Below are positions 7,759-38,732 of a stretch of 39,713 bases of DNA, one piece after another. The DNA lies in assembly GCA_020426625.1 (NCBI GenBank), contig JAGQPR010000013.1:1-39713 (forward strand), read 5' to 3'. The notes below the pieces were generated by a model. It saw only the letters and a program-made list of their open reading frames with translations. It searched no databases and was not told the origin of the DNA. Numbering within the stretch: position 1 is the first letter of the stretch; each line of letters opens with the position of its first letter. Position numbers and translations under genes: made by a program. This DNA is from Planctomycetales bacterium (GTDB lineage Bacteria > Planctomycetota > Planctomycetia > Pirellulales > Pirellulaceae).

Positions 7759-7825
7759 GGCTGATCTCTGCTTCGGACCGCAACACACAATCCCTAACGA
7801 ACCATAACATACTAAACAAACAGCT

Positions 7826-20242: not shown

Positions 20243-21382
20243 CTAGCGTTGGTAGATCGGTAGATAGTGGTATTCCACAGACAGGCTGAGTATCGCCAGG
20301 CAAGTCGCGTAAACTTTGCCCGCTCCCAATTCCTCACCGCCGGGCGCCATCCAAGAGCCGTCGTTTTGTTGTTGCGGCAAAAGTAGTTCGCGGGCGACGC
20401 GTTTGGCATCTTCGGCAATATTGCCCCCGCGCTGATGCATGCCTTGCGCGTAGTAATACATGCCGTAAAAGAAATAGCGATCCTTCCATTTGGGCGGATT
20501 TCGCAGTAGCCATTCTGTCGAACCCGAGACCAAGGGCGATTCGTACTGCCCACAGACTTGCATGGCTAACAGTCCGGCTGCCGTCATGGCAAAAGTGGCG
20601 TTTTGGTTGTCCGGCAAGTAGCTGAAACCAGCTAAGGATTGGGTCGGAATACCGCGTGAATCTAACCTGGCTACGTAGGATCGTTCGAGATATTTGATCG
20701 CCGCATCGATGGCACCCGAAGGAACGTTTAACTCATCGTTCTTTGCCGAACGAAGGGCCAGCAATTGCCAGACACTTACGGACAAATCGGAGTCTGTCGA
20801 GTTGGGGGTGTAACGCCAGCCACCCTGAAATCGCGAGGCTTTCGTTTGCTGCTGAGCGCTCAGGATTAAATCGATTGCCTTTTGGCAGGCGGCCAAGATG
20901 CGATCGTCCTGCTGTTGGTCGGCACCCATGCCCAGCATTTCCGTCAGCATCAATGTGGTGATTCCATGTCCGTACATGCGAGAACCATCTCGGTTGCCAA
21001 AGTATCCGTTGGGTTCCTGGCGATCGGCTTGAAGGACGAAATCCAAAGCACGTCTCACCGCCTCTCCTTGCCGACCGGGCGACGTAGGCAAATTCCCCAC
21101 GGATGCCATGGCCATGATCGCCAGCGACGTCATGGTCGTGTCGTATTGTTGGTCGACAACAGCGCCATCAATGCGCTGTTTAGAGAGTAGGAACTCGCAG
21201 GCGCGTTGGATTGCCAGGTTTTCGTCGTTGGCAATCGCTGCGGCTTGATTCTGCGCCAATGCAGTAGAAAGAGTCGAAGGCGGTCCGCCTATCCACAAGT
21301 ACAACACCCACGCTCCGCAAGCTATTGGCCTGGACCATTCTTCTAAGTGCGCCATGGATTCTTTAGGGTAGGAGTATTTCAT
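20243..21382 (-). CDS. Secreted squalene-cyclase/prenyltransferase-repeat (alpha/alpha toroid) protein
   Basis: A 379-residue protein, last gene of the VWA operon; its ATG overlaps the stop of the giant gene as ATGA. An N-terminal hydrophobic stretch ending near ALAQ (about 43-46) looks like a signal peptide. Repeated helices with QW-like turns can be seen: KQRIDGAV, EPNGYFGNRDGS, RFQGGWRYTP and QQQNDGSWMAPGG. This is the fold of squalene-hopene cyclases, but the DxDD acid motif is not present (the nearest is DSDLS), and the protein is about half the length of a cyclase. A cyclase role is therefore unlikely. Such toroid proteins are frequent in planctomycetes with no known function. Its translational coupling to the VWA cluster suggests an extracytoplasmic part in the same system. 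Confidence 0.82.
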   Translation of the reverse strand: MKYSYPKESMAHLEEWSRPIACGAWVLYLWIGGPPSTLSTALAQNQAAAIANDENLAIQRACEFLLSKQRIDGAVVDQQYDTTMTSLAIMAMASVGNLPTSPGRQGEAVRRALDFVLQADRQEPNGYFGNRDGSRMYGHGITTLMLTEMLGMGADQQQDDRILAACQKAIDLILSAQQQTKASRFQGGWRYTPNSTDSDLSVSVWQLLALRSAKNDELNVPSGAIDAAIKYLERSYVARLDSRGIPTQSLAGFSYLPDNQNATFAMTAAGLLAMQVCGQYESPLVSGSTEWLLRNPPKWKDRYFFYGMYYYAQGMHQRGGNIAEDAKRVARELLLPQQQNDGSWMAPGGEELGAGKVYATCLAILSLSVEYHYLPIYQR

Positions 21383-24300
21383 GGATTTTCAGTTGTACTG
21401 GGCGACGCCAGTTGGTGGCGGCCAAGCTCGCGAAAATAGGCTTCGATTTGGGCGCGATAACTTGCGGGCATGGCATCACGACGGCCTTGGAACAGCTCAG
21501 TTGGAGCTTGTTCTCGCAGCTCACCCCATTCACGGCCCAGGCGATTGACGTCCACGATCTGCACGTGAACGGCTGGTTGAGGCTTGACCTCAGTCGCTGG
21601 CGAATCGGTAGCCATGCCGAGATCGCTGGTCGCCGGATCTGAGGCTGGTTGCCGGTTCTGACTCATGCGATGCGCCAGCTGCTCAGCTGCTTCAGCGATG
21701 GGAGGTGCTGGCGAACCCTCTCCCTGAGATGATGTTGTACCATTGGCATCGTTGTCCTTGGGACCCTGTTTAGGTTCTTTCGGTTGATTGAGTTGTTGGT
21801 CCAATGCATCCAGCAGCTGAGCCAGCTCGCGCGAGTCGAGCGGCAATTCATTAGGTGACTCGGTTGCGTTTGCCGCTGGTGCAATTTGCGTTTGAGGCGA
21901 GTTTCCTTCAAGCAATTGCCTAACTTGTCGAGTAACATCTTCAATCGATGAAAGGACATCTGTCAGCCGCTCCATGGCGTCTCGACTTGCCTCAACACTC
22001 ACCCGCATGGTATTCGATGCGGCTGCTTGTTCGCCAGCCAGAACCAACGTTTCCGTCGCCTTGGGAATGCTATCCTCAATGACTCGCTGCGTTTCCAGGT
22101 GAGCACGTTCCAGACGCTGAGCATTGTTCGATTGCCTCAATCGCTCCTCGTGCCGCGCGGCTCGAGCCAGTAAGTCCGACGCGCGTGCCACGTGGCTTGC
22201 CACTTCTTCTTGGTCGAGTTGGGCACTTGCCACCGCAGAAGCTGTCGCCTGCATGGAGATCTGCGGCGGTTGCTGCAAGCCATTTTCAATCCATTTAGTA
22301 ACCTCTACTGCTTGCTCTGCCAATTGGACTCCCAGCCGACCGAATGGATTGGCGGTTTCCAAGGCGTCCACCTGCCATTGATTCAGGTTCTGTGTGTGCT
22401 CGCGCGCATCGGTTCGCCGTTGTTGCAATTGCCGCAAAAATGCCTGCAAAGCGGTTGAAGTCGCCAATTGAGTCTGTCGCTCCTGCGTAAAATCTGTTTC
22501 GGTTTTCAGTCGATCAAGCTGGCTTGGTGACAACCTTTGCTGAGACTCCGCCTGTTGAATGGATTCGGCGAGGATACTCTCGATGCGTCGCGCCTCTCGC
22601 ACTAATGCCTGTTGAACGCGGCGAGCTCGATCCTTCAGTTCACGCCGACTGAGCTGTATCTCCGGCTGACTACGTTGCGGAGCGATTTCCGTCGACGCCG
22701 CAAACTTACCCAGTTGGTCAGTAAGCATTCTCCGAGTGTTAGACAGTTGATTCCACAAAGTGCTAGCCAATTGCCATCGTCCGCTGAACGTGTCCGGCAT
22801 AACTTCGACCGCATCTGTAAAATCATGAGCCAGGGAAGCTATCTCTTGCAAAATGGTAGTTGCTCGCTCTGTTTGCCCAACCGCTTTTGCAGTCCACTCC
22901 ATCTCCGTTAGCAGTGGTCCTAATAAGGCGTCGTAGCGCTCTCTTGCCAATCGAATGTCTTGCTGCAGCAACTTTTTGTAATATTTCGTTTCAGGAGCGG
23001 AATCCTCCAAAGCGGGTGCTAACGATTGTTGTTCATCCTGCGCTACCAGCAATTCATTGAGCGCGTCGCGTACGGCAACTTTGGCGATGTCTGATAACTC
23101 TTGCTGCATCTCGGCATCGTTTGGTAGTTTTTTTTCCAGCATTTCAAGAAGTTGTTCGGGATCGCTCGCAGCCAGCTCTGCAAGTTGCTCGGCCAGGGTG
23201 TAATCGGCTGACAGTCCCTCCTCCGTCGAATCGGCAGGGGCTTCGTCGGACAGCTGGGGTTCCTGGTCGCGATTCGGTTCACCAGCGAGTGAGGAGCTAT
23301 TTGCCGTCAATGGCGATCGGTCCTGATTGGCAATCGTTTTTCCTCGCAGGATCGAAGCCACACTAGCTAAGTCCTCGGCTGCAGACATTTGCTCTTGAGC
23401 AGCGTATCTCAATCGTCGAACTTGATCGCCGGGGGGCGATTGCGCATCCCACGGAGTAAGTGATCCTTCGATTTGTGCAGAAGCGTCGGCTACTACTGCC
23501 AATGCTCGGTCTGCGTTCCTCGCCTTCGCTATTTGGGCTGGCTCGAGCAAGTCCTGCAGTTCTGCGTGATCCACCAAAGCTTCGCGCAGATCTTCGATAG
23601 GCTTGGTGAGTTGCGAAAGCTGCTCCTCGAGCTGTTGTTCACGAGACTCCAGATCTGGTATTTCCTGGCGCGTAACCGCTTCTCCCAGCTGTTGGGACTG
23701 AATTCCCACGTTTCTGGTTGCATGCGCAGCCCGCTCAGCCAGAGTTTCGATCTCAGGTGCAAACCCGGCTAGCACTGCGCGCGCCTCCTGTGCCAGCGTC
23801 TCAACCTCCTGTTCGGCAGATGTCTGCAACTCGTTAAGCTTTCTCAAAGTCGCAGCCAGCGAGTTGATCGGTGGCTGGCTGCGTTCGCTGCGTTCCAATT
23901 GAACCAGTAGCTCGCGTCTCTCACTGCCCAATAATGCTTCCAGCAGCGCTGGTACTGAAGCTAGCTGACGACCGGGCATGCTTAAGTGCTGAACTGCGGT
24001 CTCGATTTGGGCCGTGTACATGTCCCACAATCCCAGAATGCGTTCCACTTGCTGGCGATTCTGCTGAGGAAGATTTTGAACCTCTATTATTTCCGCCAAG
24101 AGACGTCGCCCGCGCTGCAAGCGCGCGACGCCATCCAGTACCTGAATCGCCGCCGCAATTTGCCCCAACTCGCGCTGCATTCGGCCAGCCAAATAAGCTG
24201 TCCGCTGCTCGAAACAGAACTCCACCGCCCGCTTAGCGTAGCCCAAATCGCTCGCAAAATGATCCTGTCCGCTGCTCTGCGACCTGCCAATCGACCTCCG

Positions 24301-26793
24301 CTCGGCCAGTTCCTCCAGGACGAATGCCACGCGTGGATTGTCTGCGTGCAGTAGATTGTCTGCCGTGCCTGCGAGCAATCCAATAGACTCACTCGCAGCT
24401 CCTGCCAAGCGGAGCAGCTCGCGCTGGCTGTAAGCGCTAGCAGCTGGCAGCCCGGGGTCCAACTGAGTAACGGAATCTAACACGGACAAGGCAATGTGCA
24501 ACGAGGCCGCATTGTGTACAAGGAGATCTGCGCTGAGCTTGCCTTGTTCCCTCTCTAGTTGCGCCATTTGTGTAGCGATGACGCTCGCCGCATAGCGCAG
24601 CCGCTCAGCGGACTCCTCGCGCAGGTGGACCATTTCGTCCAACATGCACTGCTGAACCTCCTTCAACTGCATGGCGATGACCTGCTGCCTGCGGGCTAAT
24701 GTTATGAGAGTGGAGCTGTCGGCACCCATGTCGCTTTGCAATTGCGACTGCTGCGCGAAAACTATCGCAAGTTTTGCAGCCAGGAATTGCATCACATCGT
24801 AGCTGACGAGTGTTCTAAAATGGGCGGAGATGTTGCCAGCATCGGCCGCCACACTGTCCGAGCCAACTTCACCGGCTGCGTCAATTAGTTGACGCATCTT
24901 GCTGGTTAGAGCGTTGCCAAGCTCTCCGAGTTGCAGTTTGTGCAATTGGTCGGACGACAGTGAAGCCGTTTGTTCAACCAGCCCAACCAATTGTTTGATG
25001 TCCTTCTCCGAGCTGAAAACAATCTCACGTCGCAGCCCTGGAGCATCGTTACCAAGTTCCGCATAATTCGTCAACTTGGTTGCCAGTTCCTCGAGGCGCT
25101 GGGCAATTTGCAGCCTCAACTGGACAGCCTGGTCTACGCCGAAATCCACACTGCCGTCGGCGATTACAATCTCCAATACGTCCGAATTGGTAACTTGCTC
25201 CTTCAAGTCGGTTGCGGACACACGCAGCTCCATGCGATCCCCTGCCCGCAAGTTGAACGGGAGCAGATCCATGGTCCAGTCGTACGTAACGGAGGCAACA
25301 ATCGCTTCCTCTTCTGATGCAATCGCTTCATTCGTTGTGCTCCGGCTATCAACTGCAATATCAACCCAATCGCGTTTGTTGATGCGTACTTGCCCACCGA
25401 TGCGAGTAGATGTTTCATCTCGCACCAGCAGGCTGAGCGACACTTGGTCACTTGCATTGGCAATCAGCGTTGTGTGTGTCGGAGCAAGCCAACGAACGGA
25501 GGGTGGCACGTCAGTCAGACCGCGGATCGCATACTTGCGGCTAAACTCGTTGGTCAGCCCATGGGGGTTGAGTAAGTGGACCCGGAATTCGCGATCTCTG
25601 TCGACAGGCAGCTCAAGCGCCCACAAACCTGTTGCTGTTTCAAATTCCAGTTCGGATATCGCGTTTTCTTCTTCCTTCAGGTCCCTAGCAGGATCGGGAT
25701 CGTCTGTGGTGTTTGACCAATACAATGCCGCTCGGACAACAGGTTCCTCGACCTGGATCTGGATTTGCACGCGACTACCCATCAGCGCCCGAATTTCAAC
25801 TGCGGAAAGCGCCTCGCGGTATGCGGACAAATTGGTGTACGCCGGAGGAATTATCGTCGTGATGAATTCGGCAATCTTGGGGCGTGGTTGAGTGTCCAGG
25901 CGATACCAGGGAGTTTGCGCCTGCTGCGCCACCACTCGGTATTCGATCCACGGCTGCTGCGTGCTAAGTAATCCTTGAACATAAACGACACCGCGTTCGG
26001 CGCCGATGTTGAGATCTTGAGCCGATGGTTGATGAAGCATCCTCGACGACTGGTTGGATGAATCAGTTCGCGTCTCCAATTGCGCTTGGCCGTTGAAGTC
26101 TCCGGATATTTTGGCAACGAGGGATACCAAGTCACCTGATGCGACCGTCATCGATTGGGCAACGGGTCGGACAATCTCAATCGCCACGCTGCTGACGCGT
26201 CCCCAATCAAACATGGGTAGCAGAATCCGCGCTGCGCGGTGTGTAAAATGCAGACCAGGCGACACCGATAGTAGGAGAATCAAGCAAGCAAAAGCGCATG
26301 CAAAGTAGAGCGAACGGCGAACGATTCGCCAGGGCAGCATTTGTTCGATATCGACCAACTCCATGGCTTCTTCAACTTGCATTTGCAACTTGGCGATAAA
26401 CGCATAGGAGCCTGCAGTGGTCGGGCCGTTTTCGTCCGACATTTCAACAGCAGGCAACAGCAAACCGCGTAGATTGCGATTCGCTCGCTCGAATTTGCGA
26501 GCTTCGTTGGACAGAGTTCCGCGGGCAAACACTTTTTGCCCCAAGAGACTCAACATCAGCAGCAGCGGCACGTAGAAAACTGCGCATGCCAACCATGGTG
26601 CAGCCGGATGCGCCCACCAGCCATCCAAGAGTAACGCCAAACACAAAGAAATCGTGGCGGTCAGGCAACAACGCCCTAGACCACGAGTCGCCATCAAACG
26701 AATGCGACGGGAACGAAAGGCCGCCAGCTTGCTCCGGGTGACCTCCGGCAACGCTGCGTTCATATGCGACATTTCGTCAAAGGCAATACTCAT
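21379..26793 (-). CDS. Giant membrane-anchored coiled-coil protein (DUF4175-like), 1804 residues
   Basis: ATG 26793 overlaps the stop of the upstream VWA gene as ATGA; an in-frame extension to 26874 lies inside that gene. Three membrane segments are near the N-terminus (about 42-58, 66-85 and 160-178), followed by a region of beta-rich, Ig-like character (about 200-550). A very long helical, Gln/Glu/Ala-rich part with heptad-like patterning (about 580-1650) comes next, then a low-complexity linker and a C-terminal helix ending YRAQIEAYFREL. This layout resembles DUF4175-type proteins of Planctomycetes and Bacteroidota. The bulk should sit outside the cytoplasm, anchored beside the VWA proteins encoded upstream. 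No catalytic motif was found. The single frame is unbroken over 5.4 kb, so the size appears genuine. Confidence 0.85.
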   Translation of the reverse strand: MSIAFDEMSHMNAALPEVTRSKLAAFRSRRIRLMATRGLGRCCLTATISLCLALLLDGWWAHPAAPWLACAVFYVPLLLMLSLLGQKVFARGTLSNEARKFERANRNLRGLLLPAVEMSDENGPTTAGSYAFIAKLQMQVEEAMELVDIEQMLPWRIVRRSLYFACAFACLILLLSVSPGLHFTHRAARILLPMFDWGRVSSVAIEIVRPVAQSMTVASGDLVSLVAKISGDFNGQAQLETRTDSSNQSSRMLHQPSAQDLNIGAERGVVYVQGLLSTQQPWIEYRVVAQQAQTPWYRLDTQPRPKIAEFITTIIPPAYTNLSAYREALSAVEIRALMGSRVQIQIQVEEPVVRAALYWSNTTDDPDPARDLKEEENAISELEFETATGLWALELPVDRDREFRVHLLNPHGLTNEFSRKYAIRGLTDVPPSVRWLAPTHTTLIANASDQVSLSLLVRDETSTRIGGQVRINKRDWVDIAVDSRSTTNEAIASEEEAIVASVTYDWTMDLLPFNLRAGDRMELRVSATDLKEQVTNSDVLEIVIADGSVDFGVDQAVQLRLQIAQRLEELATKLTNYAELGNDAPGLRREIVFSSEKDIKQLVGLVEQTASLSSDQLHKLQLGELGNALTSKMRQLIDAAGEVGSDSVAADAGNISAHFRTLVSYDVMQFLAAKLAIVFAQQSQLQSDMGADSSTLITLARRQQVIAMQLKEVQQCMLDEMVHLREESAERLRYAASVIATQMAQLEREQGKLSADLLVHNAASLHIALSVLDSVTQLDPGLPAASAYSQRELLRLAGAASESIGLLAGTADNLLHADNPRVAFVLEELAERRSIGRSQSSGQDHFASDLGYAKRAVEFCFEQRTAYLAGRMQRELGQIAAAIQVLDGVARLQRGRRLLAEIIEVQNLPQQNRQQVERILGLWDMYTAQIETAVQHLSMPGRQLASVPALLEALLGSERRELLVQLERSERSQPPINSLAATLRKLNELQTSAEQEVETLAQEARAVLAGFAPEIETLAERAAHATRNVGIQSQQLGEAVTRQEIPDLESREQQLEEQLSQLTKPIEDLREALVDHAELQDLLEPAQIAKARNADRALAVVADASAQIEGSLTPWDAQSPPGDQVRRLRYAAQEQMSAAEDLASVASILRGKTIANQDRSPLTANSSSLAGEPNRDQEPQLSDEAPADSTEEGLSADYTLAEQLAELAASDPEQLLEMLEKKLPNDAEMQQELSDIAKVAVRDALNELLVAQDEQQSLAPALEDSAPETKYYKKLLQQDIRLARERYDALLGPLLTEMEWTAKAVGQTERATTILQEIASLAHDFTDAVEVMPDTFSGRWQLASTLWNQLSNTRRMLTDQLGKFAASTEIAPQRSQPEIQLSRRELKDRARRVQQALVREARRIESILAESIQQAESQQRLSPSQLDRLKTETDFTQERQTQLATSTALQAFLRQLQQRRTDAREHTQNLNQWQVDALETANPFGRLGVQLAEQAVEVTKWIENGLQQPPQISMQATASAVASAQLDQEEVASHVARASDLLARAARHEERLRQSNNAQRLERAHLETQRVIEDSIPKATETLVLAGEQAAASNTMRVSVEASRDAMERLTDVLSSIEDVTRQVRQLLEGNSPQTQIAPAANATESPNELPLDSRELAQLLDALDQQLNQPKEPKQGPKDNDANGTTSSQGEGSPAPPIAEAAEQLAHRMSQNRQPASDPATSDLGMATDSPATEVKPQPAVHVQIVDVNRLGREWGELREQAPTELFQGRRDAMPASYRAQIEAYFRELGRHQLASPSTTENP

Positions 26794-29183
26794 ACTAGCC
26801 CCGCTCGTTTTCGCAAGATCCACTCCATCGTAAGCAGAGTTAGGGCTGGCAAAAACCACATGTAGGATTGCCAAATTGCTACTGATCGATTTTCCAAGCG
26901 AATACCGGAAACCGGTCGTAGCTGCTGCGCAAGTTGTGACAAGTCGTTTTCGGAGTAGTACTTTCCACCAGTCGCCTGTGCCAAATCGGTCAGCAATTTT
27001 CTATTGCAAGTCAAATCTAGCAGCTCGCGCCGATGTTCGCTGGTCACAACCAGCTCTGTTTCAATGTTCAGCGCTTCCTGAGGGTAATCTTCCGCAAGCA
27101 ATCTCACTCGGTAGTGTCCCTCGGGAAGATTTGACGCAATCGCCGAATAGGTACCTGGCAAATCCGTGTGTTCGATCAATGCAATCTTGGTTTCCAGTTG
27201 TGCATCGCTTGCGAGAACAACCATTACCGATTTTCCGCTGGCGGGATCACCGGACATGTCCTTCAGCTGTGAAAGCAACTCCACGGGATGTCCTGGCAGG
27301 ACTTGGGCAGCTCCCGTGTCCAAAGATACAAACTCGTTCTTGACCGCCATGGGACGCCGCTGTACCCAACGCGCCAGCTGGCTCCAAAGTCGTTGATGTA
27401 CCGTATCAGCAGCCTTGAACCGCCACCGCCAGGTTTCATCCGTAGCGCAATACAGCACGCGACCCGCACCGTAGCGTCGGGTGACAAGTAGCGGAGTGGT
27501 CTCAACGTCACTTATTGCGTCGATCAACGTTTCCGCACCCGGCAGCGCTTTCACTCGAGCAACAAAATTCAGAGGTTCCAGCTGACTCCACTGGCGCAAG
27601 TTGCTCGCGTCGTCCTTGATCACGTTCATGTCATTGCTGTTAAGGCTGGTGTCGATTCGCAGCGCCTGAAGACGCATTCCCACTTCGGTAAGCGCTACTC
27701 GCTTGGGCAATGATTCGACAGCGGTTACCACAGTATCTGATTTGCCTAACCATTGGACTGGCAACAGATCGCCAATCAAGTCGCTTGCAGAAGCTCGCAA
27801 CTGACGACGGGCGCCATCCAACAGCACCAGCCCGCCACCCTTCTCGACAAACTCATGCAACCAGTTTACATCCTGAGATTCCAGGTTTTTGCAGTCGATA
27901 TCACCCAGGATCATCAATTCAAACGCATCAATTTGTTCATTTGACAAACCCAATGGCAACGGTAACCTCGCCGTCAGTTGGCTTGATGATTGATGTAAAA
28001 TGTGAGATTCTATTTCCCAGGCTGGATCGCGGGAGAACATGTTTCTAAGATAGCGGCTCTCCCATCGACTGCGTCCGTCCACAAACAGTACGCGCGAACG
28101 TTGGGCGATGACCGCCAAATTGGATACCAGGCGATTGTTCGTCACGCATGGCTCACGCGCCGCGGAAGTCAGCTGTGCATGCAACGCGACCGGGTAGCGA
28201 GAATACTCTCCACCTTGTTCCGAGTTGGTAAGAACGTGTTTGATTTCCGCAATCGCGATTTCAAAATCGATTTTTCTCCGGTCTGACTCCGTAGACAACA
28301 GTTGTTGCTGCCAAAGGACGTTGGCATTTCCTACGTCGTCTTGGCTACCGATCGTTGCCGTATATCTCGTGCCGGCTGGGATTCTCTCCTGAATCAACAG
28401 GGCTCCCCGTAGTGTATCGGCCTGGAACACGCTCTGTGGATGTTGCAAGTCGACCACGGCCAGATCCACAGGGGAGCTCTCGGCACCGAAACCAACCGTA
28501 AAGAGTTGGATGTTTCGGTTGGCTAAATCCTCGGCAGCTGTCAGCGCGTCACGGCCTGCGTTTGATTGACCGTCGCTTAGTAGGACAACGTACTCAGACG
28601 CAATGGAGTGCTCTTCTGACGAGTTGCTGTTGGCCATTGCGGAAGATATCGCATCCCCTAAGGGAGATCGTTTGAACCACTGCTCTGGCATCCAATTGGC
28701 GGGCAAGCCTATAGATCTTGACAACGGCAGCGCACTGGGGTCCAGCGGAGTGGACTGCCACAGCGCTTGTTGTGGATTGCTGCTGGTAACGACACGTATC
28801 GACATTTTGTTCTTTAATTCTTCGAGCCAGCTTTGATCGGAAATCATTCCATCGACGGCTCGGGCATAGCGTGATCCTTCGCTAGGGTAATGCTCCGAGC
28901 TTTCATTCTCCTGAAGCTCGTCCCTCAGCGACATACTTTGCGAATCGTCCAGAATAATCGTGAGATTGGCCGGGGTGCCCCGCCATCGCTGGGTTTCCCA
29001 AATCGGTTGGCTAAGGGTCATTGCGACTAGAAAGATGGCCATGCTGCGCAGCAAGATGATGCAGTATCCCAACTGGATTTTTTGCTGGCCAAACTGGCGA
29101 CGATAAAGTACCGCCGCAAGTAGTGATAGTCCGGTAGCGACGAGCAACCAAGTTGGCCAGTTGCCAAGAAATTGCACGGACAT
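26790..29183 (-). CDS. Membrane VWA-domain protein with glutamine-amidotransferase-like region
   Basis: A 797-residue protein starting at ATG 29183, one base overlapping the previous stop (TAATG). Two membrane segments (about 11-27 and 41-58) precede a VWA domain with an intact MIDAS motif DDSQSM (Asp 79, Ser 81, Ser 83) and later LLSDGQSNAG (200-209). A middle section (about 362-470; VLFVDGRSRWESRYL, and FELMILGDID...GGGLVLLDGAR) resembles the class I glutamine amidotransferase fold but without a G-x-C-x-G nucleophile. A beta-rich region and a C-terminal membrane helix (about 770-790) close the protein. By analogy with BatA/BatB proteins it would be a metal-dependent adhesion module in the membrane, working with the other operon products and an unseen MoxR ATPase. 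Confidence 0.85.
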   Translation of the reverse strand: MSVQFLGNWPTWLLVATGLSLLAAVLYRRQFGQQKIQLGYCIILLRSMAIFLVAMTLSQPIWETQRWRGTPANLTIILDDSQSMSLRDELQENESSEHYPSEGSRYARAVDGMISDQSWLEELKNKMSIRVVTSSNPQQALWQSTPLDPSALPLSRSIGLPANWMPEQWFKRSPLGDAISSAMANSNSSEEHSIASEYVVLLSDGQSNAGRDALTAAEDLANRNIQLFTVGFGAESSPVDLAVVDLQHPQSVFQADTLRGALLIQERIPAGTRYTATIGSQDDVGNANVLWQQQLLSTESDRRKIDFEIAIAEIKHVLTNSEQGGEYSRYPVALHAQLTSAAREPCVTNNRLVSNLAVIAQRSRVLFVDGRSRWESRYLRNMFSRDPAWEIESHILHQSSSQLTARLPLPLGLSNEQIDAFELMILGDIDCKNLESQDVNWLHEFVEKGGGLVLLDGARRQLRASASDLIGDLLPVQWLGKSDTVVTAVESLPKRVALTEVGMRLQALRIDTSLNSNDMNVIKDDASNLRQWSQLEPLNFVARVKALPGAETLIDAISDVETTPLLVTRRYGAGRVLYCATDETWRWRFKAADTVHQRLWSQLARWVQRRPMAVKNEFVSLDTGAAQVLPGHPVELLSQLKDMSGDPASGKSVMVVLASDAQLETKIALIEHTDLPGTYSAIASNLPEGHYRVRLLAEDYPQEALNIETELVVTSEHRRELLDLTCNRKLLTDLAQATGGKYYSENDLSQLAQQLRPVSGIRLENRSVAIWQSYMWFLPALTLLTMEWILRKRAGLV

Positions 29184-31444
29184 TAGCCACTGTCTCCTCG
29201 GTCGATTCGCCCAGCCAGTAGCATTTCAGCAAATAGCAGGCCAAGTAGAGCTACCACGCAAGCTGGCCAAATCTCCTTGCCCTCCCGCTGCAATAGTTGC
29301 CAGGTCAGTAATTCATCAACCGAGCGGACAAACGTGGCGTTCAACTGCTCGGCCACCGATTCAACCTGAGAATCATTCAGCCGCGACAATTCCGATTCAG
29401 CGGGATCATTGGAGACAGCCAGAAGCGGTGGAATCGATGCATGCGACGAATCTAACTGAGTCACCTTGTAAACTCCACCCGGCAGTGTCAACGGCACGAT
29501 GCTTGACGACTGACCGCTGTCGAGCAGGAGCGTATGCGCTTTGTCCCCCGCCCCGATTTGATTGAAGACCAAATTCAAGGGTAGTGACTGGTCCACAGAA
29601 ACTGGTCGCGAGATGCGAATGGTTTCGCCACAAATAACATTGTAAGCATCGCTGTGCCAACGTACTGCACTGAGTACGATACTCTGTACCAACGGCAGGA
29701 AAACAGGCGTAAGTGGCCAATCGGACCACTCCTCCGACAATCCGAGTCCACATTGCACTACATTGCCTTTGCCAGCGCGATGCATGGCCGCTAGCGTTTC
29801 CCCACTGGATAGTCGTAACAGTTCTCGGACTGGTGAACCTGTAGAGGACTCGCTTGCCAAGCTGGAAACCAAGTCGGTCCACCGCTTGAGATGCACTGCA
29901 CCCAAATCCCTTTCCAACGAGGCGATTTCCTGTTGGAAAGGTGATCGCAACTCACTTACGGAGGGCATCAGAATTGTGGGAGCCGCTGCGGTTGCCAAAT
30001 CTCGGTTACTCTCGGAAAGCTGGCTGGTATCGATGTCTTGCCGACGGACGTTGCCGAATCGCAATGGCAACAAGTTATTATTGTTAACCCAGTTGTCGTT
30101 GTACCACGTTGCATCTAGGTCCGGTCCAGAGAAGACAACCAGCCCTCCTCCATCAGTCACGAATGCTTCGATTGCGCTCGCAGCTGCCGACGAAAGCGCT
30201 GGGGCGGCAACCAAGACCAATGCATCCTGTTGCTGCAGCGAACGAATATCCAAATGTTTCGCAACAATTGCATTTACGCGAAAGTGATTGCGAAATGCAT
30301 CCCGGCCAACGTAGGGAGCCAGAGCTAATTGCAGATACTGAGCTTCAGCAAGTGATTGAGCTTCAGGATTTTGAGCAGGGTTCGTCTGCGTGATTGTCCC
30401 TGCTGACGATATCAGGACGCGAAGCGGCTCAAAAACTTGTACTATTTCACTCGCTTGATTGTCAGCCGACAACGCATCGTTATGCATCAAGGAACAAACA
30501 ATATGGTGCCAGGCGGGGTCAGCAAACGTGCACGCGAAATCGAGTTGTTGAGCGCTGCCAGCAGCCAAGTCGACGGTACGACTCTCCACGGCATCGCCAT
30601 CGACAGAAAAGGTCACATAAACCGTTGTTGCACTTGTGCTGTGGTTTCGCACAATCGGCTGTGCGTGATAGATGTCGTGGATGAAAACGGCCGATTGCGG
30701 TCGGGGCGGCATGTGTATAGATACATTCCGTCGCGTGTTAACCGTGTTGTCCTGTGGGTCAGCTCGCAGCAGAAGCAGTTGAAGGGAACTCGATCGCTCC
30801 TGCAGTAAACTGCGTAGCGAATCGTAGGCAGCTGCCAACGGCGACCAATCTGCAGCTTGAAAATCGCTGATAACGACGACCTGCCGCATTCCCGCTTCGG
30901 AAGGATCCTGCGTGCGGATGGCGGATTCCACAGCAGCTAACACAGAACGTTGGCTCCCAAAGGCTTGAATGCCATTCAATGATTCAGCGAAGCTTTGCTG
31001 GTTTGCTACCGAACTCGCGTTGTCTGCTGTTTGAGTCGTATGCAATGCGAGTGTCGCGGAGGGCTGCGCCGTAACGATATTGCTCGCAGTTTTCTTTGCC
31101 TGTTCAAGCACTGTCGTGTCTGAGTCATTCGTGCATAACATCGATAGGCTATTGTCGATTACGAATTGAATCGAATCTTGTCCGCTGTATCCTGGCACTC
31201 GAAAACGGGTCAAGACAGGACGAGCCAACGCAATGGCAAATACAATGGGAATCAGGATGCGCAGCAGCAAAAGCAACCAAGAATCCCACTGCACGCGTCG
31301 CGATGAGAGTGCTGGCTGTAGCGCAAGCAAGTGCATGGCGCCCCACTGGACCGTCTTAGGGCGAGCACGAGACAACAGGTGAATAACCAGCGGTATTAGA
31401 GCTGCCGATGCCCCACCCAGCAAAATTGTGTTTAAGAAGTTCAT
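29183..31444 (-). CDS. BatA-like membrane VWA-domain protein
   Basis: A 753-residue protein. The N-terminal 80 residues match the BatA/aerotolerance-regulator N-terminal domain: LIPLVIHLLSRARPKTVQWGAM, then a second membrane segment LLLLRILIPIVFAIALARP. A VWA domain follows, with MIDAS DNSLSM (Asp 97, Ser 99, Ser 101) and VVVISDFQAADW (189-200). A region at about 406-444 (ALVLVAAPAL...FVTDGGGLVVFSGP) resembles a glutamine-amidotransferase fold without the catalytic cysteine. A final membrane helix lies near 728-747. The overall layout repeats that of the next gene, so the two are probably old duplicates. It lies 150 bases downstream of the DUF58 gene. Confidence 0.88.
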   Translation of the reverse strand: MNFLNTILLGGASAALIPLVIHLLSRARPKTVQWGAMHLLALQPALSSRRVQWDSWLLLLLRILIPIVFAIALARPVLTRFRVPGYSGQDSIQFVIDNSLSMLCTNDSDTTVLEQAKKTASNIVTAQPSATLALHTTQTADNASSVANQQSFAESLNGIQAFGSQRSVLAAVESAIRTQDPSEAGMRQVVVISDFQAADWSPLAAAYDSLRSLLQERSSSLQLLLLRADPQDNTVNTRRNVSIHMPPRPQSAVFIHDIYHAQPIVRNHSTSATTVYVTFSVDGDAVESRTVDLAAGSAQQLDFACTFADPAWHHIVCSLMHNDALSADNQASEIVQVFEPLRVLISSAGTITQTNPAQNPEAQSLAEAQYLQLALAPYVGRDAFRNHFRVNAIVAKHLDIRSLQQQDALVLVAAPALSSAAASAIEAFVTDGGGLVVFSGPDLDATWYNDNWVNNNNLLPLRFGNVRRQDIDTSQLSESNRDLATAAAPTILMPSVSELRSPFQQEIASLERDLGAVHLKRWTDLVSSLASESSTGSPVRELLRLSSGETLAAMHRAGKGNVVQCGLGLSEEWSDWPLTPVFLPLVQSIVLSAVRWHSDAYNVICGETIRISRPVSVDQSLPLNLVFNQIGAGDKAHTLLLDSGQSSSIVPLTLPGGVYKVTQLDSSHASIPPLLAVSNDPAESELSRLNDSQVESVAEQLNATFVRSVDELLTWQLLQREGKEIWPACVVALLGLLFAEMLLAGRIDRGDSG

Positions 31445-31594
31445 GTTCCGTTGCGTGGTGTACTATTCTTTTCCTCGGTACAGAATGAGGCTTGCGCAAT
31501 AATGGCCTGCTTGACCAGAGCATCACAACTGGGCGCGACCTGTGTACCACCAAATTCCACATCCCGCCATTTTCAATGCACAAGAAACCGTATC

Positions 31595-32521
31595 CTAACG
31601 CGCCGTCCCCCGCATTCGTCGCTTGCCAGGATTCCCTCGACGCACTAGATAATTCGCGAGTATTTCTGCTTGGGGTTGATCGGAAATGCATTCTAGGCAA
31701 TCAATACCCTCTGCTGCAAACGTTTCCGCCAGACGGCTGCGAAACTCTGCCAACCTTTCCAAATAGGCTCGCCGCACTGCGATTGGATCCAATACGTGGG
31801 CCTCGTTTGCCGACTCTAACGATTGAAATTGCGTTAATCTCCGGAACGGAAAATCCAATTCGTCGGGGTCCCAAACCTGAAAGACGACTACCTCGCATTG
31901 ACGACGACGCAGATGTTGCAAAGAGCTTAGCAACTGCGGCGAATCCTCGAATAGGTCCGATACCAGGAACACTAAACCGCGTTTAGGCATCCTTGGTGTT
32001 AACTGATGCACTACGTTGTGAAGCTGCGAATTCCCTGCAGGCTGACTCTTGACCAACGCCGCGCACAGTGTCGACAAATGCGAGGGATGGCTGCGCGCTG
32101 CCATGAACTCCCGAAGCTGGGCATCGTATAGAGCCAAGCCCACCGAATCCTGTTGCGAGATCAGCAACGTTGCCAGACAGGCCGCCAGACGCACGGCATA
32201 CTGATGCTTGGTGATCTGGCTCCGAGTTCCGGAGTACTTCATCGACCCGCTTTGATCGACCAGTATTATTGCCCGTAGATTGGTTTCATCTTCGTACTGG
32301 CGAACATACAACCGATCCGTCTTGCCGTAGAGATTCCAATCCAGCGAGCGAATTTCGTCTCCGCGAACGTAGGGCCGATGCTCGCGAAATTCTGCACTAG
32401 TTCCCTTGTGCGGCGATCGATGCATGCCAGTGTGCACGCTTTCCACAACTTTGCGGGCAAGGATCTGCAATCGCAACAAAGATTCACGATCTGCGGGAGA
32501 TAGGAGCGGCAAGCTGGACAT
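31595..32521 (-). CDS. DUF58 (VWA-like) protein, first gene of the VWA operon
   Basis: A 308-residue soluble protein with the DUF58 signature EFREHRPYVRGDEIRSLDWN (45-64) and YVRQYEDE. A VWA-like segment carries the MIDAS motif VDQSGSM (Asp 89, Ser 91, Ser 93) and later LVFLVSDLFED. DUF58 proteins are encoded beside MoxR AAA+ ATPases and VWA membrane proteins, and are thought to serve as adaptors for metal-dependent assembly or chaperone complexes. Here the gene is the first of its operon: no MoxR gene lies upstream, and the next gene upstream is on the other strand. No strong ribosome binding site precedes ATG 32521. Confidence 0.92.
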   Translation of the reverse strand: MSSLPLLSPADRESLLRLQILARKVVESVHTGMHRSPHKGTSAEFREHRPYVRGDEIRSLDWNLYGKTDRLYVRQYEDETNLRAIILVDQSGSMKYSGTRSQITKHQYAVRLAACLATLLISQQDSVGLALYDAQLREFMAARSHPSHLSTLCAALVKSQPAGNSQLHNVVHQLTPRMPKRGLVFLVSDLFEDSPQLLSSLQHLRRRQCEVVVFQVWDPDELDFPFRRLTQFQSLESANEAHVLDPIAVRRAYLERLAEFRSRLAETFAAEGIDCLECISDQPQAEILANYLVRRGNPGKRRMRGTAR

Positions 32522-32605
32522 GGCAAGTGGTGGAAGTGATGCGATGTTTGGTCGGTGGAAAGTTCGGCAAGAACAAGATGTGCAATTCGTTATCTTGGTG
32601 GGTCA

Positions 32606-32628
32606 TACCGGGTTTCGTTACCGGGTTT
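32606..32628. repeat. Short direct repeat upstream of the DUF58 operon
   Basis: TACCGGGTTT occurs at 32606-32615 and again at 32619-32628, a 13-base period, about 85-110 bases upstream of the DUF58 start. It could be an activator or repressor site, but two 10-base copies alone do not prove it. Confidence 0.3.
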
Positions 32629-32768
32629 TAACGCCGAAACAAATTGCTGAGTCATCGCATTGTACCAGCTGGTATCTACAATACTTGGATCAAGCGTTGG
32701 CCAGGTTGTTGCAGAAGGTGGTGTAGCTTTCTACCGGCCCCCTTGATAACGCGATTTAGGTGTCCGAA

Positions 32769-33266
32769 ATGAAGAATGTTGCATTAGCATGTTGTTTTGT
32801 AGCTGTACTTGGCAGCAGCCTGTTTGCCCAGGGGGAAGCTAAGAAGAAAAAGAATGGCGATCCTGCCAAGCGAATGGTAGAAACTCTGCTCAAGGGACTC
32901 GAACCAGCGGAACTGAAGCCAGAACAAACCAAAGAAATCGAGGAGATGTACTCTAAGGTTGCCAAAGAAGTGGTTGCCAAGCGCGCAAAAGCGAAACTGC
33001 CTGGTAACATTTTCAAACTGCGAGCTGACGCACAAAAAGAAGCCAAAGAAGCGGGCAAGAAAGGCAAAGCTCTGCAGGCAGCAATCGACGCCAAGATTGG
33101 TTTGACCGAAGAACAGTCCAAGTGTTGGGCCGAGACTACCGAAATGCTGGCCAAAACCAAGCTGGCAATTGGCAAACTGCTGAGCGAAGAGCAATTGGCC
33201 AAAGTGGAAAAGCCATTGCAAACCGCACTTACTGGAAAGACCGGCGCGAAAAAGAAGAACGCATAG
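32769..33266 (+). CDS. Small secreted Lys/Ala/Glu-rich protein
   Basis: ATG 32769 follows an AGGTG ribosome binding site at 32758-32762; a GTG at 32760 would add three residues. The 165-residue product has a signal peptide (core VALACCFVAVLGSSLFA, cleavage near FAQ at about 20), then a highly charged, mostly helical body dominated by Lys, Ala, Glu and Leu, and a basic tail KKKNA. The spaced helices (ELKPEQTKEIEEMYSKV and GLTEEQSKCWAE) resemble small LTxEQ-type periplasmic helical proteins, but I cannot assign a family. A hairpin at 33295-33317 follows and may end the transcript. It is divergent from the VWA operon, sharing a 247-base upstream region. Confidence 0.72.
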   Translation: MKNVALACCFVAVLGSSLFAQGEAKKKKNGDPAKRMVETLLKGLEPAELKPEQTKEIEEMYSKVAKEVVAKRAKAKLPGNIFKLRADAQKEAKEAGKKGKALQAAIDAKIGLTEEQSKCWAETTEMLAKTKLAIGKLLSEEQLAKVEKPLQTALTGKTGAKKKNA

Positions 33267-33600
33267 CTCAAACCGATCTGCCAAACTCCACTACCCTGCC
33301 CGGGCCGCCTGGGCAGGAGTCGGAACAAAACCGCAGTCGGGCCTACAGAGGCCGTTGTAGCAGAGAATAGACGAAACTAGGGCATCCCTGCGAAGGCGAG
33401 GACCCAGCGTGAGCCGTTCCAGCTCATGCGGTGAACCGACTAAACACCCCACGAAACTGGGTTCCCAACAGCGCGGGAATGCGGCATACGCCGCGGGGAT
33501 GACGATGCTTGAAACTGAGCAACAAACCACAGCCGGGTCCGGCACAGATCGTAGAAGCGAACCCATGCGTGGGCAGATGCAAGTTGTTAGCGGGACGATG
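33267..33600. other. Convergent intergenic region
   Basis: 334 bases between the small secreted protein (plus) and the SRPBCC gene (minus). It contains the hairpin at 33295-33317. A minus-strand open frame at 33291-33710 crosses it but overlaps the SRPBCC gene in another frame and has no recognisable sequence. Confidence 0.5.
33295..33317 (+). terminator. GC-rich hairpin after the small secreted protein gene
   Basis: CCTGCCC (33295-33301) pairs perfectly with GGGCAGG (33311-33317) around a 9-base loop, 28 bases after the stop codon. No T-run follows. The position suits a terminator or a 3' stabilising stem. Confidence 0.5.
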
Positions 33601-34718: not shown

Positions 34719-34762
34719 TATTCGTTTCGTGAATTCGAAAAAATCAACCGAATGCAGTGTCG

Positions 34763-34914
34763 CAAATCGTAATTCCGAAGCCACATCAGCCCCAACGCGC
34801 TAGCGTGCGGTTCCGTCAGAAACCGCCTGCTAGCGTCACAAATCGTAATTCCTATGCCACATCCGCCGCAACGCGCTAGCGTGCGGTTCCGTCAAAAGCC
34901 GCGTGCTATCGCTC
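34763..34914. repeat. Two tandem 76-base repeats, each with a hairpin
   Basis: Unit 1 (34763-34838) and unit 2 (34839-34914) both begin CAAATCGTAATTCC and share ACGCGCTAGCGTGCGGTTCC further in, with scattered differences elsewhere. In unit 1, CGCTAGC (34798-34804) pairs with GCTAGCG (34829-34835) and GCGGTT (34807-34812) with AACCGC (34821-34826), giving a two-part stem; unit 2 keeps a weaker version. Confidence 0.8.
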
Positions 34915-35008: not shown

Positions 35009-37234
35009 TCACGGCGAGTCTTCAGTCTGTAGCCAAACCGGTTGTGTGAAAGCGCCGTTCGTGGCGACATCCCATATTTCCATTCTCACCCACCGCTGGC
35101 CAGCCAGTTCGACCTGGAATTCAATGGCCTGTTCGCCAAAAGCAGATGTAGCCGACAGATCAAATCGCTGGCGGAATACATTGATGCCATCGCCGTAAAC
35201 CACCTCTGCATAGGCCAGTGGGAACGTCCACCTTAGATCCAACGAAATGAGCGAATTCCCATTGCTGGGCACAGAACACAACTGACCCGACTGACAACCG
35301 TTGACTCTGAAGTCTGGTATTAAGACTTCACCAGTTGTTACAAAGAACTGACCTGCGCGAAGCACATCCAATACCGCTTGCCAACCATGGTCGAAGGCGG
35401 GTATCTCTTCCGTGCGAAGGTAGTTGACATTCATGTGGCCATACAACTCATGCTCTGGCTCGATCTTAAAGACGTCCACTTCTCCGAGAACGTATTTTGG
35501 GAATCCCCAGTTGGACATGTCGTTCAAAAGATTCAGCACCCGCATGCCCAGTCGTGGCAATGACAAATCGGCTGGCATGGCCTTCCAGGCCGCACCCAGG
35601 AACCGATCGGATTGATAGAATAATTCATCGCGGTAGGCGTCAGGAAATCCTGTCGATCCCTTGATTCGAGGGTGAGCTGTCCAAGCCAACCCGTTCTCAA
35701 GTTGCAGCAATCGCAGCATATCAGCGGCATTTCCAACATGGTAGATGTTCCCCAACGTTGAATGCTGCGTAACAAATGGCATTCCCGCAGGCCGGTTGAG
35801 TACCCAGTAGACAGGTTTAGGGAATAGGCTGATCCAATGTCCACCCAGGTGCACGTTTGGTTCTTCGCCTGGCAGTAAGAGAAACTCGGCATCGCTCAGT
35901 CGTCGAGCTTCCGCGTGCAGCAGTTCCAAAGACTCCACTCTCTGTTCAGTGTCCAATTGCGGTGTGGCACCGAAATGAAATTCGGCCAAGTGTACGATAT
36001 CGATCCCCATGTCGCGCAGCATTCGCGTGAAACCAGGTGTTTGGAGTCGTGGCGGGATAATGTATTCGCGCCCGCCGGGTGTGGTGGCCGTAATCGATGC
36101 TTCGTCCTCGGTTGGTTGTTGCTGCGCAGCGAGTAACTCTCGCGTATGCTCAACGTGATAGTGGCTCGAAAAAACCGTGTGTCCTGGCAGTCGTTCAAAA
36201 CGATCATGCCTAGTCAATTGAGCCACCGTTTCCAGTGTCTCATCGATCCGTCGATTGGACAAACACCAGAATACCCCCATCTCCTGGGCGCTGCCGACCG
36301 GGGCATTGAACCAAGGAACAAAGCGATTATCACCTGCGGGATCATGGCGAATTCCCAGGCCGGTCGGTAATGCCTGCGAAGCGTAATGGGGACCGATCCA
36401 GACGTTGCTGAGATTATTCGAGAAATCGAGTGGATAGAAGTAACGATGTGGTGGAGGGAAAACCGCGATGCAGCCCTGCTCAAAGGCAGCGCAAACCGTT
36501 CGTCCCCGTACGGCGATGTTGCGAGCCGCAGCGACTGCAGAGACAGGTTCAGCGTGCACCTGACTGGTGATAGCATCTATCCAAGCATATTCCTTGGGTA
36601 GCGAGCCGCGACAAACAAGGCCGGTATCGTAGAGAAAGGCGGTTCGCTCACGTGCCGTTTCAAGTACAGCTTCCTGCAGGACGATGGGGCTGCCGTGATA
36701 AAAAGTCCAACGGATTACTCCGTGAAACGGGCCTGCCGATACGGGGCCAAGTGTCAATGTCGCTCGCTGGGCATTACTTGTTGCAACAGCTTGTTCACGA
36801 CCCAGCGTAGCCAGGTACACTTCGTTGGGCTTGGTCTGCATGCGATCAAAGAAGATGGTCCAGCCACTTCGTTTCTCTAGATCGCGGTCTCCAACTCGCA
36901 CGGACAAAACAGGGTCAAGATCAGTGGCCACAGTTTGTACGGAGTCGCCACTTTGCGATATAGAAACTGACTTAACGATCGCATCCTTGGCGTCCAAGCT
37001 AAAAAGTATCGTAGCGGTTGCGGTATCGTGTATGGGCCAAACCACAGAGACGACCGAATCTCGCTGCGTAATTGCGATTCCGCACGACGGGTCATACTGG
37101 CTGGCGTCCAGCGTTGCTTGAGCGGCACTAGCCGCCAAAGGCATGGCGAAGATACCAACAAACAGCGGGCACCATGCGCGCGTAAACATTGCAAGCAGCA
37201 TCATCGTGGTTCTTGTTCGAGTCGCAGATCGCAT
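35009..37234 (-). CDS. Secreted PHP-like (CehA/McbA-type) metal-dependent hydrolase
   Basis: ATG 37234 follows an AGGGGACC ribosome binding site and opens a signal peptide (hydrophobic core about 22-36, cleavage near ASA at 37); an upstream in-frame start at 37294 would bury it. The mature 700 residues have a beta-rich N-terminal half (about 40-340) and a C-terminal half with PHP-domain-like metal ligands: HYHVEH (358-363), HLAEFH (415-420), GEEPNVHLGGHW (456-467) and AWTAHPR (517-523). This order resembles CehA/McbA-type hydrolases. It probably cleaves a phosphoester, ester or similar bond outside the cytoplasm; the substrate is unknown. It is 25 bases beyond the photolyase-related gene on the same strand and may share its transcript. 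Confidence 0.7.
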   Translation of the reverse strand: MRSATRTRTTMMLLAMFTRAWCPLFVGIFAMPLAASAAQATLDASQYDPSCGIAITQRDSVVSVVWPIHDTATATILFSLDAKDAIVKSVSISQSGDSVQTVATDLDPVLSVRVGDRDLEKRSGWTIFFDRMQTKPNEVYLATLGREQAVATSNAQRATLTLGPVSAGPFHGVIRWTFYHGSPIVLQEAVLETARERTAFLYDTGLVCRGSLPKEYAWIDAITSQVHAEPVSAVAAARNIAVRGRTVCAAFEQGCIAVFPPPHRYFYPLDFSNNLSNVWIGPHYASQALPTGLGIRHDPAGDNRFVPWFNAPVGSAQEMGVFWCLSNRRIDETLETVAQLTRHDRFERLPGHTVFSSHYHVEHTRELLAAQQQPTEDEASITATTPGGREYIIPPRLQTPGFTRMLRDMGIDIVHLAEFHFGATPQLDTEQRVESLELLHAEARRLSDAEFLLLPGEEPNVHLGGHWISLFPKPVYWVLNRPAGMPFVTQHSTLGNIYHVGNAADMLRLLQLENGLAWTAHPRIKGSTGFPDAYRDELFYQSDRFLGAAWKAMPADLSLPRLGMRVLNLLNDMSNWGFPKYVLGEVDVFKIEPEHELYGHMNVNYLRTEEIPAFDHGWQAVLDVLRAGQFFVTTGEVLIPDFRVNGCQSGQLCSVPSNGNSLISLDLRWTFPLAYAEVVYGDGINVFRQRFDLSATSAFGEQAIEFQVELAGQRWVRMEIWDVATNGAFTQPVWLQTEDSP

Positions 37235-37259
37235 GTGAGGTCCCCTGAATTTGAATAGC

Positions 37260-38732
37260 TTAGACGTGTAGTTTTTCGAGAAAGCGATCTGCATGGCGAT
37301 GATGTTCGGCCAGTTTCAAACCCATGCGATCGAGTTGCCCGACCATGACGCGCATCCGCGGGTTGGAGCTGAAGAAATCGCGATGCCGGTCAATGAAGCG
37401 CCAGTAGAGTCCATCCCAGACCTCCGTCCATGGTCCCTTCGAATAATCGCTCATCTTGCGAATATAGCTCGAACCACTGATATAGGGTTTGGTGGTTATC
37501 AGTCCTCCATCCGCATGTTGGCTCATGCCATATACGTTGGGAACCATGACCCAATCGTAAGCGTCAATGAACATTTCCATGAACCAACGATAGACTTCAT
37601 CGGGCGCGATATCGCATAGTAACATAAAGTTTCCTAGCACCATCAAGCGTTCGATATGATGGCAGTAGGCGTGGTTCCCTACGCGTTGTACGCTGCGATC
37701 AAAGGGCTCGATCCCAGTTGTGCCAAGATAAAACGAAGCCGGGAGTTTGCACGAAAGCTCCCATGCATTTCGAGTACGCTGGCGTCGACCGGCTTGCAAG
37801 TAGACCAACCGGATAAACTCTCGCCATCCGATCACTTGCCTCAGGAAGCCCTCCAGTGAATTCAAGGGAATGATATCAGCCTTGTCCAAGACAGCCTCGA
37901 CGATCTGCCGCGGGGTCAGTAGGCCGATGTTGAGCATGGGGGTTAGCACGCCGTGAAACAGGAAGGTTTCGTCGCGAGAAATGGCATCCTCATAGTCGCC
38001 AAAGTCAATCAAGCGAGTCTCGATGAATTCGTCTAGCCAGGCAGCGGAATCCGCATAAGTCACCGGAAAGGCAAACTGCTGAATCTGCCCTAACGCGTCT
38101 GGAAATTGGCATGCAACATACCGCTTGGCCTCGCGCACACTTTCGCCCTCTGTCGGTAATGAGATCGTCGGCAGCACGATATTCTTGGGCAGCTTCTTGC
38201 GGTTCTCAGTATCGAAAGTCCACTTACCGCCAGCTGGCTTGTCGTTGTCGTCCAACAACAAACCCATTCGTTTTCGTTGACGCATATAAAAATCGGTAAA
38301 GTGGAAGTGTTTTCGCTGCTGCGACCAGTCTTGCATGAAGCTCGCGGGAGTGAGAAAGGCTGGATCTTCCAGCCATTCAACCGCGATTCCAGCAGCTTTA
38401 CAGCCCTGACTCACTCGCGCGTGTAGCCAATCATCGGAAGGATCAACTGCGACGACTCTCTTGATTTTCTTGTTGCGAATTATGGCTCCGATATCAGCAG
38501 AATGCTGAATTGCCCTGGCTTCGACCCGATGCACCTGCTTCCCGAGTTTTTCGCACCTTGAGGCAAACTCTGTCATCGAAGCGCGATGCAATACAAGTTT
38601 TTGACGATGGAAGTTATATTGAGTGAAAAATAATGGATCTTCGACTAATAGGCAGACTCGGGCTGCTGCTACAGCTGGATGGTGTTCCCAAAGCTGATGC
38701 GGATACACGAGAGCGGCGGCGAACTCGGACAT
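37260..38732 (-). CDS. Photolyase/cryptochrome-related flavoprotein (FeS-BCP family) lacking the iron-sulfur loop
   Basis: A 490-residue protein of the family of bacterial (6-4) photolyases and cryptochromes typified by PhrB (COG3046). Family landmarks are VYPHQLWEHHPA at the N-terminus, VIGWREFIRLVY (300-311), the His pair in YCHHIERLMVLGNF (356-369), YGMSQHADGG (401-410) and TKPYISGSSYIRKMSDY (414-430). In PhrB four cysteines bind a 4Fe-4S cluster; three of them follow MSDY. Here that stretch reads SKGPWTEVWDGLYW, with no Cys and a shortened loop, and no Cys is at the fourth position before the His pair. FAD-binding parts appear intact, so light-driven repair or signalling is possible. It starts 5 bases after the flavoprotein gene. 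Confidence 0.9.
   Translation of the reverse strand: MSEFAAALVYPHQLWEHHPAVAAARVCLLVEDPLFFTQYNFHRQKLVLHRASMTEFASRCEKLGKQVHRVEARAIQHSADIGAIIRNKKIKRVVAVDPSDDWLHARVSQGCKAAGIAVEWLEDPAFLTPASFMQDWSQQRKHFHFTDFYMRQRKRMGLLLDDNDKPAGGKWTFDTENRKKLPKNIVLPTISLPTEGESVREAKRYVACQFPDALGQIQQFAFPVTYADSAAWLDEFIETRLIDFGDYEDAISRDETFLFHGVLTPMLNIGLLTPRQIVEAVLDKADIIPLNSLEGFLRQVIGWREFIRLVYLQAGRRQRTRNAWELSCKLPASFYLGTTGIEPFDRSVQRVGNHAYCHHIERLMVLGNFMLLCDIAPDEVYRWFMEMFIDAYDWVMVPNVYGMSQHADGGLITTKPYISGSSYIRKMSDYSKGPWTEVWDGLYWRFIDRHRDFFSSNPRMRVMVGQLDRMGLKLAEHHRHADRFLEKLHV

Follow-up and report, generated by a model that had tools for sequence, protein, structure and literature searches.

MoxR ATPases work with VWA-domain partners, and the usual way to guess these partners is to look at the neighbouring genes. 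The stretch of DNA analysed here (the window) is the whole of contig C44 of genome G000, 39,713 bases long. It carries a five-gene operon that starts with a DUF58 gene and has no moxR at its head. Does this operon still work with a MoxR ATPase, and if so, with which one? We consider it likely that the window holds five genes of a six-gene MoxR/VWA envelope-assembly machine, a function that we infer, and that the cytoplasmic ATPase acts from an unlinked locus.

The five-gene operon and its proteins

The five minus-strand genes described in an earlier note on this DNA were all found in that order and at those coordinates, and four of them (DUF58, BatA-type VWA, second VWA and toroid) are supported by Pfam. 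The overlaps of 1 to 4 bases reported for the last four genes were also recovered, with 1 base between the second VWA and BatA-type genes, 4 bases between the giant and second VWA genes, and 4 bases between the toroid and giant genes. The DUF58 and BatA-type genes are spaced by 150 bp without overlap. The upstream plus-strand neighbour is indeed unrelated, being a 168-aa ORF (32760-33266) with no MoxR similarity, and the window contains neither the missing moxR nor a remnant of it (tblastn, six MoxR queries; best E 0.049). The features are as follows.

5965-9355, plus strand: two flanking genes (5965-7758 and 7826-9355) with homologs in the one-contig relative G009
20243-21382, minus strand: alpha/alpha-toroid protein, 379 aa (PF13243, 28.9 bits; cut-off 26.1)
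21379-26793, minus strand: giant, putatively DUF4175-like protein, 1804 aa (profile comparison, AlphaFold2, Foldseek)
26790-29183, minus strand: membrane VWA protein, 797 aa (PF00092, 30.7 bits; PF07090, GATase1-like, weak and under its cut-off)
29183-31444, minus strand: BatA-type VWA protein, 753 aa (PF07584, 45.8 bits; VWA_2; TIGR02226, 73.8 bits)
31595-32521, minus strand: DUF58 protein, 308 aa (PF01882, 145.6 bits; ortholog present in 17 of the 196 order genomes surveyed)
32522-32759, no strand: intergenic region, the place of moxR in relatives and the moxR/DUF58 breakpoint (no MoxR by tblastn)
32760-33266, plus strand: divergent ORF, 168 aa, outside the system (no MoxR similarity)

Gene orders below are abbreviated with M for MoxR, D for DUF58, B for the BatA-type VWA protein, V for the second VWA (VWA/GATase-like) protein, X for the giant and T for the toroid protein.

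A DxSxS motif is common to the DUF58, BatA-type and second VWA proteins. In the DUF58 protein it is a MIDAS-type motif, DQSGS, at residues 89-93. Since hydrophobic segments are absent, this protein is predicted to be a cytoplasmic VWA-like adaptor. The BatA-type protein (DNSLS at 97) consists of an N-terminal double-TM anchor, a VWA domain and a C-terminal hydrophobic segment or TM. Its VWA domain would lie outside, because the loop between hydrophobic segments 1 and 2 is positive. A BatA-type VWA domain faces the periplasm by experiment in Borrelia BB0173, according to an excerpt of PMC5700661. The second VWA protein (DDSQS at 79) has a single hydrophobic segment over threshold, and its ambiguous topology counts against the proposed machine.

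The giant is 1804 aa long with the ATG at 26793 and 1831 aa with a TTG start, and has three hydrophobic segments. In a Pfam search no family exceeded its cut-off, and DUF4175 (PF13779) was unmatched at E ≤ 0.05. Its N-terminal profile aligned with that of three DUF4175-type planctomycete giants (hhalign probability 99.8, E 3.5e-29, 507 aligned columns), one of which exceeds the PF13779 cut-off. By this indirect route of profile comparison, the giant is tentatively classed as a diverged relative of DUF4175 proteins. The compared giants have 1099-1164 aa, in contrast to 1804 aa in the window giant, which itself falls under the PF13779 cut-off. AlphaFold2 modelled residues 1-640 (pLDDT 80) as helices, beta-sandwich (Ig-like) domains at about 203-545, and helices again; Foldseek matched tandem Ig proteins with low TM-scores. 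These N-terminal 640 residues are 26-33% identical within the genus, indicating rapid divergence.

The toroid protein was modelled as an alpha/alpha toroid (pLDDT 83, pTM 0.82), with Foldseek matches to terpene cyclases, GH76, farnesyltransferase and complement C3 convertase. Six aligned operon copies share 58-67% identity with it. Compared with squalene-hopene/terpenoid cyclases, it has the toroid fold and PF13243 just above cut-off, while NCBIfam cyclase models reach 32 of the 322.7 bits needed. We claim no cyclase activity; the protein is presumed to be exported from its N-terminal sequence as read by eye.

Promoter- and terminator-like matches within 31400-33400 are at chance level, and none supports a DUF58 promoter. 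Elsewhere in the window, an intergenic tandem pair of 76-nt repeat copies, 88% identical, occupies 34756-34907. A 761-aa ORF at 35009-37294 has no Pfam match, and none of the 14 other genus genomes has a relative of it at E ≤ 1e-20.

moxR in relatives and in the source genome

The genus of the window is represented here by 15 genomes, of which 10 encode orthologs of V at 195 bits or more; eight of these ten have an assembled flank upstream of D. moxR lies directly upstream of DUF58 in six of these eight operons (G009, G007, G004, G012, G003 and G008). The other two are the window itself and G011, in which 636 bp of non-coding, repeat-bearing sequence precede DUF58 before the contig ends. The earlier note held that its reading would fail if close relatives carried moxR directly upstream and the window were an isolated rearrangement. 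The first part was found, in these six operons. The isolation was not, because another species of the genus and three further genera show the arrangement too, and the tree described below has three to four changes.

Public genomes were scanned with the DUF58 alignment, and the best 80 loci were kept (two of them, L195 and L207, correspond to G012 and G007 of the genus). moxR lies within 300 bp upstream in 66 loci and 514-2991 bp upstream in three; eight have no same-strand moxR in the available upstream sequence, and three have too short an upstream sequence. The full order M-D-B-V-X-T was found in L264, from Verrucomicrobia, and in L261, from a record titled uncultured bacterium. As read from these loci, six-gene moxR-DUF58-BatA-VWA-giant-toroid clusters extend to Verrucomicrobia, with gene order kept across two phyla.

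Other rearranged clusters were also observed. The G012 operon is broken elsewhere, with M-D-B-V on one contig (L112, G012:C556) and X-T on another (L061, G012:C336), where a 106-aa ORF resembling part of V precedes X. On the G011 contig (L062, 1-4098), two unrelated genes, and not T, lie downstream of X, and no T was recognised on that contig. A Pirellulaceae MAG contig (L252) carries a shuffled cluster, in which V comes ahead of D and a fragment of MoxR is on the opposite strand.

The genome search for moxR genes that had been proposed earlier retrieved 13 strong PF07726 matches in G000, one of which, on contig C620, is orthologous to the MoxR heading the operon in relatives. This protein carries AAA_3 (PF07726, 213.7 bits) and AAA_lid_2 (PF17863, 55.2 bits) domains, and both its Walker A (GVPGLAKT) and Walker B (LADE) motifs are intact. 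In a tree of 45 MoxR proteins, it forms one clade with the orphan MoxR of G011 (contig C23) and the six in-operon MoxRs (bootstrap 100, SH-aLRT 98); the 12 other G000 MoxRs fall in other groups. It shares 73-76% identity with the in-operon MoxRs and is conserved like the linked copies (mean 72.7%, against 71.9-74.0%). The suggestion that the MoxR is encoded elsewhere is thus supported by an ortholog in the same genome. On these sequence grounds the cognate MoxR of the operon can be named, although it is unlinked. With 13 strong paralogs in G000, cross-talk could occur, a point against this assignment. Paralogous M-D-B-V clusters in G000 are found at L073 (C909), L080 (C688) and L082 (C22), and the one on C688 includes a giant of 1111 aa, with a distant toroid gene close by.

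C620 is a 3.1-kb contig on which moxR lies 68 bp upstream of a co-oriented T2SSF gene. As G000 is a MAG (8.4 Mb, 916 contigs, 93.9% complete, 4.02% contamination), C620 is assigned to it by binning. The T2SSF gene on C620 is the sole G000 copy at E ≤ 1e-20, supporting the place of this contig in the bin. T2SSF is present in 14 of the 15 genus genomes; in G009 some 50 kb separate it from the operon. The orphan moxR of G011 adjoins an FtsX-type permease gene, which precedes it.

The site of the separation was located by synteny. The two flanking genes of the window have homologs in G009 at 335534-337225 (67% amino acid identity) and 337403-338857 (74%). Their distance to the operon is about 10 kb in each of the two genomes and their orientation is kept, indicating that the operon stayed in place and that the break therefore fell between moxR and DUF58. 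The G009 layout, with T2SSF about 50 kb away, raised the idea of a single 50-kb inversion, with one breakpoint ahead of T2SSF and the other separating moxR from DUF58, which would yield the G000 arrangement. Such an inversion predicts the G009 genes left of T2SSF upstream of the window DUF58; none matched, and the inversion was rejected. As for a repeat-mediated break, a short interspersed motif occurs four times in the 636 bp of G011, once in the window at 34704, and not at all on C620.

Co-occurrence and repeated separation across the order

The co-occurrence check put forward in the earlier note was run on 196 genomes spread evenly over the order, searched with alignments of these MoxRs and DUF58s. 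Both scores are bimodal. Seventeen genomes score 577 bits or more for MoxR, the next one 512, and 17 score 376 bits or more for DUF58, the next one 337. The two sets consist of the same 17 genomes, leaving 179 with neither gene and none with one alone at these cut-offs, which were picked after the two score groups were seen. This MoxR thus accompanies this DUF58 in all 17 positive genomes, a tally that counts genomes and not independent events. Five genomes with MoxR scores of 502-512 bits (G065, G067, G078, G084 and G146) are treated as carrying paralogs because of the gap to 577 bits. Their best DUF58 scores are 305-330 bits, below 376, and counting them would give five genomes with MoxR and without this DUF58. 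The alternative that the operon had become independent of MoxR is unsupported at the chosen cut-offs, because no surveyed genome kept one gene without the other.

The two genes are adjacent in seven of the 17 genomes (G007, G149, G186, G133, G064, G111 and G077) and unlinked in ten (G000, G157, G174, G145, G161, G182, G205, G137, G141 and G201). They share a contig in two unlinked genomes, at distances of 213 kb (G145) and 1.3 Mb (G161). The remaining eight have them on separate contigs, and other genes directly follow moxR. Six moxR-less loci of the DUF58 scan, some from organisms that are also represented among the 196 genomes, were also checked. All six genomes encode a MoxR elsewhere that is 67-70% identical to that on C620, and the next paralog shares 57% at most. 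The separation is also seen in single-contig genomes. In TBK1r (CP036432.1), the operon is found near 0.96 Mb and moxR at 7.94 Mb; in SV_7m_r (CP036272.1) the two are 213 kb apart.

MoxR and DUF58 distances are correlated (r 0.835 over 41 rows; 0.934 over the 14 separated rows). Within the genus the correlation is not significant (r 0.32, with 62 of 1000 permutations as high), and this counts against the association.

To count separations, a concatenated MoxR and DUF58 tree of 45 rows was used. It includes 15 linked, three separated and four outgroup loci from the best 80 DUF58 loci. The other 23 rows are eight genus and 15 order genomes, and some of these organisms also supplied further separated loci in the scan. 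The main genus group of this tree does not include G012 and G003. The separated state takes four changes on the best tree, three of them forced by well-supported branches, and three to four in bootstrap trees. In all four outgroup loci (two Verrucomicrobia-like, one Neomarinimicrobiota and one Phycisphaerae) the two genes are linked, which makes linkage the simplest ancestral state. Separation occurs in a Rhodopirellula-type lineage (nine rows), in three Pirellula-like MAGs, and in G000 and G011, where it took one or two events. All nine members examined of the Rhodopirellula-type lineage have a divergent FHA-GAF gene next to the orphan moxR, the domains being assigned from one copy. This neighbour, a possible regulator, was recorded at L305, L306, L308-L310, L312, L315, L270 and L271. 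Repeated separation without loss is a natural experiment, testing whether the ATPase belongs with the operon.

Alternative explanations, proposed mechanism and known systems

The absence of moxR from the window could stem from faulty assembly or binning of a single MAG, as G000 is in 916 contigs and the contig carrying its moxR is merely 3.1 kb long. We regard this as very improbable. The window contig extends 7 kb beyond DUF58 with other genes, T2SSF and not DUF58 comes after moxR on C620, and the unlinked state is also present in the two single-contig genomes TBK1r and SV_7m_r. If the separation is real, the operon could now be independent of MoxR, with the orphan ATPase taken into another job, for example with the adjoining T2SSF. 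The short spacing and shared orientation on C620, beside a gene kept in 14 of 15 genus genomes, would allow a new transcriptional unit. A new job, however, does not predict the joint presence or absence of MoxR and DUF58 in all 196 genomes at the chosen cut-offs, and the neighbours of moxR differ between the two separated species of the genus (T2SSF in G000, the FtsX-type permease in G011). We therefore consider this explanation unlikely.

The operon might also encode one of the MoxR-vWA ternary systems for biological conflict or surveillance, which include VMAP, iSTAND, FtsH or beta-propeller partners. The MoxR and VWA core and the fast-diverging giant (26-33% identity over the N-terminal 640 residues) would suit such a role, and planctomycetes also bear VMAP systems, according to an excerpt of PMC7159879. 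The C620 MoxR matches bpMoxR (PF20030) at 49.3 bits, far under the 213.7 bits of AAA_3. The gene order is MoxR-DUF58-BatA-VWA, not VMAP-MoxR-vWA, and is kept across two phyla; no PADLOC defence model matched the six proteins, and Pfam detected no effector domain in the window proteins. A conflict role is accordingly quite unlikely in our judgement.

The reading that we prefer is an envelope-assembly machine with its ATPase encoded apart. In this scheme, moxR was probably split from DUF58 by rearrangement and now lies beside T2SSF on C620 of G000. The relocated MoxR most likely still serves the operon products as a diffusible partner in trans. A cytoplasmic MoxR hexamer would engage the cytoplasmic DUF58 adaptor, and the adaptor would act on a membrane-anchored complex of B, V, X and T. 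ATP use may then assemble or remodel this periplasm-facing complex, a function proposed by analogy, which would comprise the two VWA proteins, the giant and the exported toroid protein. The giant would contribute TM anchors, Ig-like domains and a long helical part. The predicted topology fits the envelope assembly or surveillance complex that had been proposed for these genes.

More tentatively, Planctomycetes and Verrucomicrobia might share a six-part trans-envelope machine. In Pirellulaceae its motor would repeatedly have gained a control of its own, next to a conserved FHA-GAF sensor gene in the case of the Rhodopirellula lineage, so that ATP-driven activity is regulated apart from production of the complex. 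We see this extension as possible, if doubtful. The analysis delimits a set of conserved envelope genes in bacteria whose cell envelopes are themselves unusual.

A full-text literature search, with most subscription papers outside its reach, returned nothing combining MoxR, DUF58 and planctomycetes, nor "squalene oxidase repeat" and planctomycetes. Among the matches listed for MoxR and planctomycetes, no title concerned this system, and among those listed for DUF4175, MoxR, planctomycet, Pirellula and VWA domain, DUF4175 did not occur.

The closest known arrangement is the Bat (Bacteroides aerotolerance) operon of Bacteroides, Borrelia, Leptospira, Riemerella and Francisella, which combines MoxR, DUF58 and BatA/B VWA proteins with TPR proteins. 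In excerpts of PMC5700661 and PMC11834572, MoxR comes first in this single operon, followed by DUF58 and membrane BatA-type VWA proteins. As in the Bat operon, a DUF58 gene in the window is followed by a BatA-type VWA gene (PF01882 and PF07584 above cut-off). Unlike the Bat operon, the window operon has no moxR at its head, the gene being unlinked in G000, and its five proteins gave no BatD or TPR match in Pfam and NCBIfam; a putative DUF4175-like giant and a toroid protein are found instead. VMAP and other MoxR-vWA ternary systems have a similar MoxR and VWA core but differ in gene order, and no VMAP, iSTAND, FtsH or propeller partner was detected in the window by Pfam. In NorQD, according to excerpts of PMC13036017 and PMC9976466, a finger of the VWA partner inserts into the pore of MoxR, and a linker of this partner is remodelled at the expense of ATP. 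There the MoxR hexamer drives one VWA partner, NorD, which acts on nitric oxide reductase, whereas the window system has three VWA-type proteins, two of them predicted to be membrane-anchored.
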